Assembly: GCF_037055325.1 (NCBI RefSeq)
Contig: NZ_CP146373.1
Location: 2,356,001 to 2,420,000 of the forward strand
Direction: 5' to 3'
Source: Arachnia propionica
GTDB lineage: Bacteria > Actinomycetota > Actinomycetes > Propionibacteriales > Propionibacteriaceae
Length of the DNA: 64,000 bases
The notes below the pieces were generated by a model. It did no database searches. It was not told the origin of the DNA and worked only from the letters and a program-made list of their open reading frames with translations. The translations under genes and the position numbers were made by a program. Positions 4,832-9,396 of this stretch are shown one piece after another (the first letter of the stretch is position 1; each line of letters begins with the position of its first letter).

Positions 4832-7168
4832 TCAGGCGCCGGTCTTCGGCAGACCCGGTTTCACCGGCGGCGGAAGCGGCCTGACCGGGGTCGGGGTGAC
4901 GGTAACCGTCGACGTCGGAGTCGGCGTTGGACTCGGCGTCGGAGTGACCGTCGGGGTCGGTGTTGGGGCGCCACACACCGGCTGATCCTTAGTAGTAGTG
5001 AACGTCGCACTAGTTTCACTCACCCGGGTCCAGCCCTCCGGCAACACACCACCAAACTGGAACCCAGCCTTCGCAGTAGCCGACGCCGTAACAGTCACCT
5101 TCCCAGCCTTGACCTCAACCTTCGGCTCAGAAAACTCCACACCCTCAACCGGATCAAACACCGCAGAAGGAGCCGAAGGAGTCAACGAATCCGCAGGACA
5201 GGTACCCACATCAACCCTCGGAACAACCGGAATCACACACTTCGGCTGCGTCACCGTCGTCGTATAGGTCACCACACCATTGACCACACTCCAGCCCTCA
5301 GGGAGATTCGCAGTATCAATCCGATACCCAGGCCTCGCCGTCGCAGTCACAGTGACACTCACCCGATCACCATCACTAGTGATAACAGGCTCCCCATAAT
5401 CAATCTGCTCGGTATCCTCAACACCCGAAACACTCGGCCGGGTAGGGGTAGTCGAATCAACCGGACACACCCCCGCCTTCACAACCGGAACCACCGGCAC
5501 CACATCCCGGGTGCAGGTCGGCTGAGCAACGACCTTGGTGAATGTGAAAGAACCATCACCATTCGCAACCCACCCCTCAGGCAGGTTCTTCTCATCAACC
5601 TTCCTGCCAACCACCGGCGTAGCAGTCACCTTGACCGTCACCTGATCCCCAGCCCTGGTGAACTGCGGCTGGGAGTAAGTGATGCCCTCTGTAGGACCAA
5701 CCTCAACCGTAGGATCCGACGGCTCCGAAGCACCCGGAGCACACACACCCGGCGTCACCTTCACAGAACCCACGACCACACCCGGCTGACTCACCGGATT
5801 CGTCAAAGTCACCTCGAGAGTTTTCAAACCCTCAACCGTCACCTGGGCACTGTTCGCATCCGGAGCTCCATCAGTCACACCATCCCCGGAAAACGCGGGG
5901 TCGCCGAACTCCACCCCAGCCACAGCCGGAACCTTCTCCGTGAACGTCACAACAGTCCCATGAGGAACGTTGTTCAAGGTCGTCAGCGTCCCATCGCCCT
6001 TCACGTTCAAGGTTCCGGTCCTCACCTGCCCCTTGACCGTGTAGCTGTAATCCACCGGAAAGACGGTATCCGTCGGCACCGCGCCAGCCGCGTCATTGGC
6101 CACGGTCTTCCCAAGAGTCACATGCCCAACGGTGTCGCTACCCCCTGCACCGGTTCCACCGCCGGCTGCTTCCCGGATGGCTGTTGCTTCGTAGGAATTA
6201 TCATTGACCTTGACGGCGTTCGGGTACTGCCCACCGACGAGAATCTCCTCACCAACAGAAAGAATGTACTCAAACAGGTACATGTCATCCCCAGAGAATT
6301 CTTCGGAGTTGTTGTAGGTGAGTTGTATCCGACTGGTGTCGTCGATGTTTGCGGTCACGCCCGGATAATTAGCACCATCATTCTTGTAAACGACGGTGCG
6401 GCAGTCAGCACGCCAGTTCTCGTTCCAGCACAGAGGATTGTTGTTGGGGATCCGGTAGAGAATGACTTCTCCCGGCTTCGCGGTCAGCGTAGAGCCCGGA
6501 ACCTTAAACGTGTCATCAATCGTCAGGGTTTTACCACTCAGCTCCTGCCCGGGGATGCGAATCTTCCAGGCCAAGCTGTCGTAGGGATCCCCAAGGAAGT
6601 AGCCAACTTTTGAAATGTCGTCAGGAACATACGGGGAATAGCCGATGTCCGTCTGCCCGTTCGGGAGCGGAACCTCAATCGGCGTTCCTCCGTTAACGAG
6701 CAATGTGGCGGTATCTCCCGTGTGAGTTGCCCCCACCCTGGTGTTGATGAAGAACTCGCCGCCCACACCAGTCTTGCCGACGACGTTGCCGTTCAGGACG
6801 CACGACACCTCAGCCCGGGAAACAGTACAGGTCCCGTAGCTGACGGGATCCTGAGCCGAACCAACCAGTTCAAAGGTGCCGCTGGTTCCCTCGAAAGCAG
6901 CAGGCAGGCCGATCGTGAAGGTGTCGCCTTCCTGGCCGCTGTAGTCGTTGATGGCCCAGCGACCGCTGAGCTCCACATCATTCCAGACGTAGGTGGGCCC
7001 AGCAGGCGACGTCTTGTCCGTCAGCTCCACGCTTCCAGGAACGATCGGATTAATCACGTCAGCATGCGCCGTCTGCACACCCTGTACCAGTCCGAACAGG
7101 ACCATCGCTACCACGAGCAACAACGGACCGAAACGCCCTCTGCTCTCCCAAGTCCGCTTCTGTTTCAC
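4832..7168 (-). CDS. MSCRAMM-like adhesin with DUF5979-type domain, ends at LPKTGA
   Basis: A secreted surface protein of about 778 residues. A signal peptide (GRFGPLLLVVAMVLFGLVQG, cleavage after AHA) leads into an Ig-like adhesin head; the phrase GQEGDTFTIGLP resembles the first Ig domain of Gram-positive MSCRAMM adhesins. A DUF5979-like module (about 355-460) follows, then three Cys-bounded repeats of roughly 80-90 residues (each opening GVC or GTC and closing QPxC), then a Pro/Thr-rich stalk. The protein stops immediately after GLPKTGA: the sortase motif is present, but the hydrophobic segment and basic tail that sorting signals normally need are absent. I prefer the GTG at 7168, which has GGGGGA 7 nt upstream; the ATG at 7183 has no ribosome site. 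Codon use changes sharply between about 4975 and 5890. It is paralogous to the next gene upstream. Confidence 0.82.
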   Translation of the reverse strand: MKQKRTWESRGRFGPLLLVVAMVLFGLVQGVQTAHADVINPIVPGSVELTDKTSPAGPTYVWNDVELSGRWAINDYSGQEGDTFTIGLPAAFEGTSGTFELVGSAQDPVSYGTCTVSRAEVSCVLNGNVVGKTGVGGEFFINTRVGATHTGDTATLLVNGGTPIEVPLPNGQTDIGYSPYVPDDISKVGYFLGDPYDSLAWKIRIPGQELSGKTLTIDDTFKVPGSTLTAKPGEVILYRIPNNNPLCWNENWRADCRTVVYKNDGANYPGVTANIDDTSRIQLTYNNSEEFSGDDMYLFEYILSVGEEILVGGQYPNAVKVNDNSYEATAIREAAGGGTGAGGSDTVGHVTLGKTVANDAAGAVPTDTVFPVDYSYTVKGQVRTGTLNVKGDGTLTTLNNVPHGTVVTFTEKVPAVAGVEFGDPAFSGDGVTDGAPDANSAQVTVEGLKTLEVTLTNPVSQPGVVVGSVKVTPGVCAPGASEPSDPTVEVGPTEGITYSQPQFTRAGDQVTVKVTATPVVGRKVDEKNLPEGWVANGDGSFTFTKVVAQPTCTRDVVPVVPVVKAGVCPVDSTTPTRPSVSGVEDTEQIDYGEPVITSDGDRVSVTVTATARPGYRIDTANLPEGWSVVNGVVTYTTTVTQPKCVIPVVPRVDVGTCPADSLTPSAPSAVFDPVEGVEFSEPKVEVKAGKVTVTASATAKAGFQFGGVLPEGWTRVSETSATFTTTKDQPVCGAPTPTPTVTPTPSPTPTPTSTVTVTPTPVRPLPPPVKPGLPKTGA

Positions 7169-7332
7169 AACAGCTTCCCCCATGTTTTAAATCACGCTAC
7201 CGCGCAATCGCTTAGAAGTTCCTACTTCCAGTCGATTAGCACATACGCGGGGTTAGCGTAGCCGTCCGCGATGATTCCCTCATCTTCCCTTTTGTACATT
7301 ACGGAAAGATGGATGTGGGTGACGAAGGAAAC

Positions 7333-7368
7333 GGTCGGGGCCCGATCACGCGATATCGGGCCCCGACC
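7333..7368 (-). terminator. Terminator after the upstream adhesin gene
   Basis: A perfect 14-bp stem (7333-7346 with 7355-7368) with an 8-nt loop starts 15 bp beyond the stop of the minus-strand gene ending at 7384. On that strand it is followed by gtttcc. It shows that the adhesin reading frame really ends here, with no room for a membrane anchor. Confidence 0.78.
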
Positions 7369-7383
7369 AATGAGAACAGGAAA

Positions 7384-9396
7384 TCAGGCGCCGGTCTTCG
7401 GCAGACCCGGCCTCACCGGAGCCGGAAGCGACCTGGCCGGAGTCGGCGTGACCAACGGAGACGGAGACGGGGTCGGGCTCGGAGTGGTCGGAACTTCGCA
7501 GACGGGGAGCTCAACTTCTCCTGCGAAGACAGCGGTCTTGGCGTCAATCCGTTTCCAGCCCTCCGGCATCGGGCCACCGAACTCATGGCCTTCCTGGGCA
7601 GTTGCAGTGACGGTGACGGTCACCTTGCCATCAGCGACCTTGATCTCCGGTTGGCCGTACGTGACCCCGGGGGTTTCGGCCACCGTGACGGTGGGTTGCG
7701 ACGGAGTGGTGGAGTCGACGGGACACGCCTGCGCACCGACGGTCGGGGTCACGGGGGTGACGGTCTTCACGCAGGTCGGCTGGGTGATGGTGGTGGTGAA
7801 GGTGTAGGTGCCGTCGCTATTGGCCTTCCAGCCTTCCGGCAAATGCTGGTCATCGATCTCCCTGCCCGTCGCAGGGGTGGCGGTGACCTCGACGGTCACC
7901 TTGTCACCGGAGGTGGTGAGCTTTGGGGTGGAGTAGGTGATGCCGTCGGTCTCGCCGACCTTGACGGTGGGTTTGGAGGGCTCGCTGGAGCCCGGTGTGC
8001 ACACGCCGAGGGTGACTTCGACCGGGGCCAGTTTCGGGTTCACGTGGTTGGTGAGGGAAACCTCGACGGTCTTGAGGCCCTCGATGGTGACCTGGGCGCT
8101 GTTGGCGTCGGGAACCCCGTCCTTGACGCCCTGCCCCGAGAACGCCGGGTCGCCATAGTCGATGTCACCGCTGGAGGGAACCTTCTCGGTCAGGGTGACA
8201 ACGGTGCCATTCGGGACGTTGTTGAGGGTTTCGAGGGTGCCATCGGCCTTCACCGCTAGCTCGCCACTGCGTGTCTGCCCCTTGTATTGATAGGACCAGG
8301 TCACCGGGTAGGCGGTGTCGGCGGGGACCTGGCCGCCCACGACGGCCTTCTTCACGGCAAGATGCCCGACAGTGTCACCGGAACCCGTGCCACCACCCGA
8401 CACGCTCTTGACAGCGGTCGCAGTGCGGTGTTCGGCATCGACGGTGGCCTTGTTGCTGTACTGCGCCCCTGCGGGGATCGGCCCGTCGGCTTTCAGCCGC
8501 AGATCGAACACGTAGAGCCGATCGGCCTCGAATTTCTTGCCCTTGTTGTCGATGGTGGCAGTAACGACGTCCTTGGAATCGTCAACGGAAACCTTGAGCG
8601 ATGGCGTGGTGGATGCGTCCACGGAGTGATGGCACTCGTCGGTGTAACTCTCGTTCCAGCACTTCGGAGTGTTGGGGACCCAGTGGACGGACGGGTTACC
8701 GTCGATGACGGTCAAGGTGGTTCCCGTCACCGCGTAATTGTCCGTGATGACCATGCGGGAACGATCGGCCACCCGGGAGCCAGGAACCACGATCCGCCAA
8801 TGGATGACGCTCAGGTCATCGGTCGGGAACCACCCGGACTTGTTGATCTCGGTGGGAACCTTGGGGCTGTAGCCGATGTTCCTCTGCCCATCGGGCAGCG
8901 GAACATCGAGTGGGCCGCTGCTGAGGGGGAAAGTGACCTTGTCGGTGTTGATCAGGGTGCTCACTTGTGCGCTCACCCACAGCGAGCCACCGACATTGTT
9001 CTTGCCCTCGACGTTCTCGTTGAAGGTACAGACCACGTCGGTTTCCCTCACCTCGCAGGTACCGTAGGTCAGCAGATCGCCCTCGGCCCCCTTGAGCTCG
9101 AAACTTCCAGTGGAACCTCCGATTTCTTTGGGCAGGTTGAGCCTGAAGGTATCCCCCGCTTTGCCGCTCTGATCGGGGATCCTCCACTGTGCATCGATCC
9201 GCACACCACTCCACAGGTAGACCGCGGGATCGCCGGCATCAAGTTTCGACAGCCGGATGCTTCCCCTGTCGATGGCGTTCACCTCGGCGGCCCGCGCCAC
9301 GGGGCTCGCAGCAACCAGACCGGCAATGCCGATCAGGAAAGTAAGCAGAAGCACCCCCGGCCTCCACCCGCTGCGAGCTTTGGTCCTCTTCAACAC
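7384..9396 (-). CDS. MSCRAMM-like adhesin with DUF5979-type domain, ends at LPKTGA
   Basis: A 670-residue paralog of the adhesin at 4832-7168. The signal peptide is clear (GVLLLTFLIGIAGLVAASPV, cleavage near ARA-AE). The Ig-like head spans about 40-340 and contains the GKAGDTFRLNLP motif and paired Cys. A DUF5979-like module (about 343-445, starting DTVGHLAVKK) and two Cys-bounded repeats follow, then a short Pro/Thr stalk. It also ends exactly at GLPKTGA and a stop, without membrane segment or basic tail. The start is GTG with AGAGGG about 8 nt upstream. Codons are C/G-ending throughout, as expected for this genome. Likely role: binding host matrix or other cells; how it stays on the surface is unclear. 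Confidence 0.85.
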   Translation of the reverse strand: MLKRTKARSGWRPGVLLLTFLIGIAGLVAASPVARAAEVNAIDRGSIRLSKLDAGDPAVYLWSGVRIDAQWRIPDQSGKAGDTFRLNLPKEIGGSTGSFELKGAEGDLLTYGTCEVRETDVVCTFNENVEGKNNVGGSLWVSAQVSTLINTDKVTFPLSSGPLDVPLPDGQRNIGYSPKVPTEINKSGWFPTDDLSVIHWRIVVPGSRVADRSRMVITDNYAVTGTTLTVIDGNPSVHWVPNTPKCWNESYTDECHHSVDASTTPSLKVSVDDSKDVVTATIDNKGKKFEADRLYVFDLRLKADGPIPAGAQYSNKATVDAEHRTATAVKSVSGGGTGSGDTVGHLAVKKAVVGGQVPADTAYPVTWSYQYKGQTRSGELAVKADGTLETLNNVPNGTVVTLTEKVPSSGDIDYGDPAFSGQGVKDGVPDANSAQVTIEGLKTVEVSLTNHVNPKLAPVEVTLGVCTPGSSEPSKPTVKVGETDGITYSTPKLTTSGDKVTVEVTATPATGREIDDQHLPEGWKANSDGTYTFTTTITQPTCVKTVTPVTPTVGAQACPVDSTTPSQPTVTVAETPGVTYGQPEIKVADGKVTVTVTATAQEGHEFGGPMPEGWKRIDAKTAVFAGEVELPVCEVPTTPSPTPSPSPLVTPTPARSLPAPVRPGLPKTGA

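Follow-up and report, generated by a model that had tools for sequence, protein, structure and literature searches.

Two genes in a window of 64,000 nucleotides (nt) from Arachnia propionica, corresponding to positions 2356001-2420000 of a complete 3.31 Mb genome, encode paralogous adhesin-like secreted proteins that stop one residue after the glycine of an LPxTG motif. The textbook sorting signal comprises LPXTG, a hydrophobic helix and a basic tail. Comparisons inside this genome and among related bacteria suggest that the C-terminal sequence [KR]-P-G-L-P-x-T-G-x(1-5), here called the bare signal, is probably a complete minimal sorting signal, which a class F-like sortase would use once the protein is fully exported. 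The initial observation on the two window genes is right and broader than these two genes.

Bare signals in the window proteins and their homologues

Both window proteins end with GLPKTGA and a stop codon (Table 1), as the initial annotation had stated, and with a single residue between Gly and stop the basic C-terminal tail is absent from both. It had also claimed that the other frames past the stops hold no hydrophobic segment, and indeed no membrane helix was found in three frames within 180 nt past either stop. The most hydrophobic 17-residue stretch in this range scored 1.16 for the gene at 4832-7183 and 0.66 for the gene at 7384-9396; on the two classical tails of the genome the same measure gave 1.6 and 2.27. 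PF00746 (Gram_pos_anchor) was not among the Pfam matches of the window proteins. Compared with each other, the two proteins show a best local match of 47% identity over residues 12-601 of the larger one.

The search of relatives for LPXTG-A ends, proposed in the initial annotation, was rewarded. The C-terminal ends were read in 120 listed homologues of the 123 found, with names including Arachnia propionica and [Pseudopropionibacterium] massiliense. The great majority (110 of the 120) end at LPxTG plus exactly one residue, which is A in 85, S in 14, V in 4, I in 4, T in 2 and N in 1 of them. Two more show the same end with M or P replacing L, three run 14 residues past the motif with a mean hydropathy of 0.7, and five are without the motif near the end. 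One identical 14-residue extension past PKTG, which is no classical tail, was noted in P0101, P0103 and P0117. Close relatives with a normal tail, next to which the window pair would appear as recent nonsense, were not encountered, i.e. none of the 115 motif-bearing listed homologues has a classical tail; such tails were seen only in more distant genera, on the one protein family examined (5'-nucleotidase, see below). Hence, truncation, the term initially chosen, is the wrong word, since the ending is a shared signal, and the preference for selection over accident is strongly supported well beyond the two paralogues, by the homologues as well as by 18 open reading frames (ORFs) of the same genome.

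Bare signals across the genome

The genome was scanned for P-x-[LIMF]-P-x-T-G without demanding a stop, and the frame was read at each of the 64 places. In 18 ORFs with PGLPxTG the stop follows 1 (12 ORFs), 2 (2), 3 (3) or 4 (1) residues past the Gly. Pfam recognizes among them a 5'-nucleotidase, two subtilases, three thioester-domain proteins, four GDSL lipase/PKD proteins, one SdrD_B/DUF5979 protein, one DUF7926/DUF5979 protein and Big_8 adhesins, with two lacking a Pfam match; such domains are typical of wall-anchored proteins. Signal-peptide-like N-termini were recognized by eye in 16 of the 18, the N-termini of L101 and L071 lying outside the view. Left out of the 18 were a 71-amino-acid (aa) frame (L059/L108, PELPKTGTLR, no start codon) and an out-of-frame ORF (L072, PGFPATGPLG), the latter being counted among the 19 rows of the hydropathy and upstream-residue listings. 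Another ORF (L074, 104 aa, without PGLP) ends with PSIPATG directly on the Gly, which looks like chance. Three more paralogues of the window adhesins, each with a bare signal, are clustered at 3123710-3138856 (L092, L093, L094).

A chance origin of the signals was rejected, because P-x-LPxTGx-stop occurs 13 times in this genome compared with 4 times for the reversed pattern used as control. Past the stops of the 18 genes the in-frame hydropathy does not exceed 1.09, and TGA, TAG and TAA are all used as stop codons. An out-of-frame hydrophobic stretch within 180 nt past the stop exists at 2 of the 18 genes (L065, L098), in the case of L098 inside a separate ORF. The L098 gene (L098:3308-4985) encodes a 241-aa bare-signal protein (PGLPRTGAAA) and overlaps the start of an ORF that resembles, by eye, an LCP (LytR-CpsA-Psr) wall-polymer enzyme.

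Only two proteins in the scan have the classical LPxTG followed by a helix and a basic tail (PVLPLTGG and PQLPLTGG), although classical proteins without Pro two residues before the Leu would escape, because the pattern needs it. These two pilins adjoin each other and a class C sortase, and one of them, at 417 kb, is the single PF00746 match of the genome. The pilus island (411754-419629; L099, L100, L001) holds the class C sortase and the two pilin-like proteins, whose LPLTGG tails are classical, so that the genome contains classical as well as bare signals.

Shape of the signal

Six relatives were scanned for PG[LF]PxTG, again without demanding a stop, which yielded 100 places, 98 of them distinct. 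At 67 of the 98 sites the protein ends one residue after the Gly (9 in short frames, some perhaps noise), at 17 it ends at +2 to +5, at 3 at +8 to +13, and 2 possess a classical tail (L292, L380). The other nine rows comprise two with a stop inside the motif, one end at +7 (21-aa frame), one at +31 without clear helix, one short frame at +34, and four frames overrunning the stretch (three with PGFP; L345 with an internal motif). None of the 98 sites ends on the Gly itself, the two rows scored 0 being those with the stop inside the motif. The three proteins that continue for 8-13 residues beyond PGLPxTG and have no complete membrane helix (L327, L332, L335, all from G091) are possible intermediates between bare and classical ends.

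Published sources are cited in the following by their PMC numbers, and statements on them refer to the parts of their text that were accessible. Sortases need LPX1TGX2, and a Gly whose carboxyl is free does not serve them as substrate (PMC9126251); thus, the commonest bare end is the shortest that a sortase should accept. A basic residue precedes PG in 16 of the 18 own signals and in 68 of 73 signals of relatives, and the x of LPxTG is Lys or Arg in 17 of the 18 and 55 of the 73, respectively. The initially proposed exact end LPKTGA is correct for both window genes and not as a rule, which reads [KR]PGLPxTG plus 1-5 residues, mostly one.

A class F-like sortase as candidate enzyme

Checking the host for an unusual sortase, as had been recommended initially, revealed an enzyme of this kind in addition to the class C enzyme. 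These are the two sortases that PF04203 finds in the genome, the candidate being located at 154 kb (L002:1465-2181:-), where it adjoins an ORF that looks by eye like DNA polymerase I. Its PF04203 score is 29.6 bits (cut-off 26.6). The best NCBIfam match is class F (NF033748), whose member SrtF from P. acnes uses short LPXTGX peptides as substrates in vitro (PMC7451113); the candidate reaches 64.8 bits and eight tested relatives 30-68 bits, all below the cut-off of 166. Because of these scores we use the name class F-like, while several relatives of the enzyme are named class F sortase by NCBI. The candidate possesses a hydrophobic N-terminal helix. Among 70 aligned relatives, His141 is conserved in 69, Cys213 and Arg226 in 70, and in a set of 44 all three are invariant; from their positions these residues are inferred to be catalytic. 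The structural model (predicted local distance difference test score, pLDDT, 84) supports a sortase fold, the 50 best PDB matches listed being all sortases with a best E of 1.5e-7. Two further cysteines are kept in the class F-like sortases, C74 (69/70) and C178 (70/70), which perhaps form a disulfide. The enzyme of G060 is 86% identical to the candidate.

PF04203 misses many class F-like proteins. Hence, PF04203 counts are not sortase totals, G084 and G116 must hold a further sortase, and the idea, derived from such counts, that the class F-like enzyme is the sole sortase in some relatives was dropped. Three genomes of the cutibacterial group (G011, G083, G097) combine bare signals and a class F-like enzyme with no PF04203 match, although this does not prove that it is their only sortase.

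Distribution of signal and sortase in the Propionibacteriaceae

In 148 genomes of the family, P-x-LPxTGx-stop was counted against the reversed pattern as control. The window's genus (33 genomes) shows 7.0 sites per genome (control 1.12), and the group g12 (9 genomes), which takes in Cutibacterium (C. equinum and two others) and Acidipropionibacterium timonense, shows 4.0 (control 0.78). From the 36 places in g12, 6 without locus were left out; 28 of the 30 loci read are the ends of ORFs with 129 aa or more, with V as last residue in 16 and A in 6 cases, and as the pattern demands the stop, these counts are uninformative on tail length. One class F-like match of this group (G069:843598-844246) consists of two pieces that overlap but are in different frames, one of them interrupted by a TGA; the sortase frame of G069 is thus split, yet three bare-signal sites remain.

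The bare signal does not appear to be a trait of the whole class. In a class-wide sample of 393 genomes (41 with any match), PGLPxTGx-stop stayed at background level outside the family, with at most 2 sites per genome compared with 12 here. One codon version of the signal, scanned in named genomes, hit 31 stretches, 29 of them in Propionibacteriaceae. The two others, from Streptomyces, are ORFs ending ...EINPPGLPKTG that resemble by eye solute-binding lipoproteins, and they were taken as chance matches.

Tail-less sites are enriched in genomes with the enzyme. A genome was regarded as having the sortase when its class F-like match had an E below about 1e-15, and genomes with weaker matches were counted as lacking it. 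The 66 genomes with a strong match hold 4.44 sites per genome (control 0.95), the 82 others 0.62 (control 0.79). A rank test, which ignores descent, gave p about 1e-12, and 1.2e-5 outside the window's genus. At the level of genera, an excess of at least 1 site per genome was found in 6 of 13 with the sortase and in 1 of 14 without it (p=0.029, with the threshold set afterwards). Twelve class F-like sortases form a supported clade in the tree, and they come from genera without tail-less excess (g26, g15, g25, g11); the 12 genomes hold 7 tail-less sites compared with 8 in controls, and PF00746 anchors occur in 11 of the 12. The class F-like enzyme alone is thus insufficient, and the comparison of this clade with the rest could reveal what reads the bare signal.

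One protein family with either ending

The most direct indication that the bare signal took the place of the classical one comes from the 5'-nucleotidase, that is, from one family. Relatives of the tail-less 5'-nucleotidase L102 were sought in 25 of the 148 genomes, selected primarily for their classical anchors, and 8 of the 25 hold one: five with a classical tail, one with a bare end and two with neither. The five classical-tail proteins, from three genera, have LPNTG, LPQTG or LADTG followed by a helix and basic residues, and their genomes have no class F-like match (G130, G064, G027) or a weak one (G132, G004). The nucleotidase of G017, a genome with a strong class F-like match, ends GGLPKTGL-stop. 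Those of G008 and G012 show neither ending, though both genomes have a strong match.

Features of the window genes

The coordinates are compiled in Table 1. In the 783-aa protein the Big_8 domain scored 22.7 bits in the Pfam search, slightly below the cut-off of 22.9. The hairpin placed by the initial annotation within 20 bp of one gene is indeed present, starting 15 nt past the stop of the 7384-9396 gene, though shuffling the region yields more such sites than were found. After the stop of the 4832-7183 gene the terminator scan named no hairpin.

Table 1. Features of the two adhesin-like genes, in window coordinates
Feature	Position	Strand	Basis and remarks
Adhesin-like secreted protein, 670 aa	7384..9396	-	GTG start; ends VRPGLPKTGA-TGA; Big_8 and DUF5979 above cut-off
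Paralogue, 783 aa	4832..7183	-	ends VKPGLPKTGA-TGA; DUF5979 above cut-off
Bare signal (putative sorting signal), codons R-P-G-L-P-K-T-G-A + stop	7384..7413	-	sequence, pattern match, extended motif
Bare signal (putative sorting signal), codons K-P-G-L-P-K-T-G-A + stop	4832..4861	-	sequence, pattern match, extended motif
Signal-peptide-like N-terminus, 670-aa protein	9289..9396	-	translation judged by eye; likely cut after A-R-A (residue 36)
Signal-peptide-like N-terminus, 783-aa protein	7061..7183	-	translation judged by eye; likely cut after A-H-A (residue 41)
Big_8 domain, 670-aa protein	8962..9213	-	Pfam; residues 62-145
DUF5979 domain, 670-aa protein	8041..8358	-	Pfam; residues 347-452
DUF5979 domain, 783-aa protein	5798..6121	-	Pfam; residues 355-462
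Terminator-like hairpin, 15 pairs	7332..7369	-	consensus match

Discussion

The initial annotation had offered several mechanisms, among which a sortase accepting a bare LPXTG is the one we prefer, and a candidate enzyme is present. According to this proposal, the protein would be exported via Sec and lose its signal peptide, and would then sit at the membrane-wall interface on its Pro/Thr-rich linker. The membrane-bound class F-like sortase would bind the free C-terminus and cleave between Thr and Gly, releasing a short peptide (Gly-Ala for the window proteins) and linking the Thr to an amino group in peptidoglycan or in its precursor. The binding strength that membrane retention gives elsewhere may come from the conserved basic residue and PG ahead of the motif. 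Candidates for a substitute of that retention are such stronger binding via [KR]PG, a slowed movement of the protein across the wall, and a helper. The chemistry of sortases needs no tail, because SrtF of P. acnes joins LPQTGE peptides to oligoglycine in vitro (PMC7451113) and SrtA of S. aureus attaches supplied tail-less LPMTG-amide to the wall in a reaction that probably does not involve lipid II (PMC9026250).

Several points weigh against the use of the bare signal by the class F-like sortase. Cleavage and wall anchoring are what we infer from the sequences, and an untethered substrate might drift off. In B. anthracis, a GamR fusion with the tail-less LPHTG end of BasO was present only in the supernatant (PMC3208642), hence classical systems seem to need the tail in vivo. 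DsA1 of C. acnes is described as surface-bound and also as secreted (PMC7913060, PMC5527093), few LPXTG proteins of cutibacteria were detected in the surface proteome (PMC3848858), and a quadruple class F deletion in Actinoplanes missouriensis was without phenotype in the text available (PMC13251363). Moreover, 7 of the 13 genera with a strong class F-like match have no excess of at least 1 tail-less site per genome, while one genus lacking such a match (g2, one genome) shows an excess. In the window's genus, G142 has 5 P-x-LPxTGx-stop sites and no class F-like match; its assembly consists of 220 contigs and is 97% complete, and the gene may be absent from the assembly only. Finally, the rank tests do not consider descent and the genus threshold was chosen after inspection of the data.

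A holding partner, as also considered in the initial annotation, is an unlikely but reasonable alternative. In this case, a membrane protein, a glycolipid or a Sec-associated factor would hold the exported protein near the membrane, where the sortase would then join it. Such a helper would provide the replacement for retention that is expected from the insufficiency of the tail-less LPXTG end in B. anthracis (PMC3208642), and the class F-like sortases in genera without bare signal indicate that a second factor may be needed. However, the shared signal is short ([KR]PGLPxTGx), and no candidate helper turned up, no co-occurrence search for one having been made.

It is improbable, to a somewhat greater degree, that the proteins are merely secreted and that the LPxTG end serves another role than as sortase substrate, for example in binding or in protection of the C-terminus. 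The missing tail would be expected from such proteins, and the partial secretion of DsA1 (PMC7913060) and the BasO fusion remaining in the medium (PMC3208642) point in the same direction. This role does not explain well why unrelated families retain the motif with one or more residues behind the Gly, which fits the sortase rule, or why the bare signal replaces the classical one in the 5'-nucleotidase family.

The chance is small that another sortase processes the bare signal, be it the class C enzyme of the pilus island in this genome or, in relatives, a sortase of another class; several relatives have further PF04203 sortases. The genome does have the class C enzyme, but the pilins next to its gene retain the classical tail, and G011, G083 and G097 carry bare signals with no match to PF04203, a profile that misses some sortases. 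In addition, P. acnes is said to have class F as its sole sortase (PMC7913060) and to carry 15 C-terminal LPXTG proteins (PMC3848858).

An artefact in the form of recent nonsense, assembly error, readthrough of the stop or a frameshift into a hidden tail has a negligible probability and is refuted by the sequences when the family is taken as a whole, because the ending is common to 110 of 120 homologues and many species, the low in-frame hydropathy behind three different stop codons in the 18 genes speaks against readthrough, and nothing points to it for the window genes, the out-of-frame stretches at L065 and L098 being the only hint elsewhere.

Returning to the preferred reading, in which the class F-like sortase uses the bare signal, its ends can be compared with known systems. 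They resemble the classical signal (PF00746; LocateP criteria, PMC2375117) in the signal-peptide-like N-terminus, the linker, the LPxTG near the C-terminus and the kinds of proteins; they differ in having no helix, no basic tail, 1-5 residues after the Gly and a conserved [KR]PG before the motif. The missing tail has already been remarked for DsA1 (PA25957) of Cutibacterium acnes, which has a Pro/Thr linker and LPXTG and is stated to be without membrane-spanning domain or charged tail (PMC5527093). Judged from this description, its LPXTG at position 411 of 432 residues leaves a longer end than most found here, and it was presented as a single case, unlike the genome-wide set here. BasO of Bacillus anthracis likewise has LPHTG without hydrophobic tail, but its end was shown not to be anchored and is not reported, in the accessible text, as part of a genome-wide set (PMC3208642). 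The substrates LPX1TGX2 used for protein labelling have the same minimum as the bare signal, one residue after the Gly and no tail (PMC9126251); they are engineered or externally added, whereas the bare signal would be a native form. In P. avidum, P. acnes and P. granulosum, 12 to 18 C-terminal LPXTG proteins were counted, tails being unmentioned in the part of that report available (PMC3848858). An account of a tail-less sorting system was not found in the literature covered, which excluded most subscription journals and the main class F sortase paper.

On a wider scale, the odds seem even that Propionibacteriaceae including Cutibacterium run a second sortase pathway without membrane-retention step, in which the class F-like sortase would capture fully exported proteins via [KR]PGLPxTGx and attach them to the wall, perhaps to finished peptidoglycan and not lipid II, the loss of the tail together with the divergent sortase representing an evolutionary switch from the classical system. 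Because the LocateP predictor demands LPXTG, helix and basic tail together (PMC2375117), proteins with bare signals would go uncounted as wall-anchored. If the class F-like sortase indeed uses the bare signal, the surface proteomes of Cutibacterium, Arachnia, Tessaracoccus and Acidipropionibacterium have been undercounted, the question of the role of class F sortases becomes directly testable, and the function of the tail can be studied in a natural system without it. It could also give a native tail-less sortase-substrate pair for protein labelling. Bacteria with bare signals seem to manage with the tail-less form, a hint that in this family from mouth, skin and environment proteins may be fixed on the bacterial surface by simpler means.

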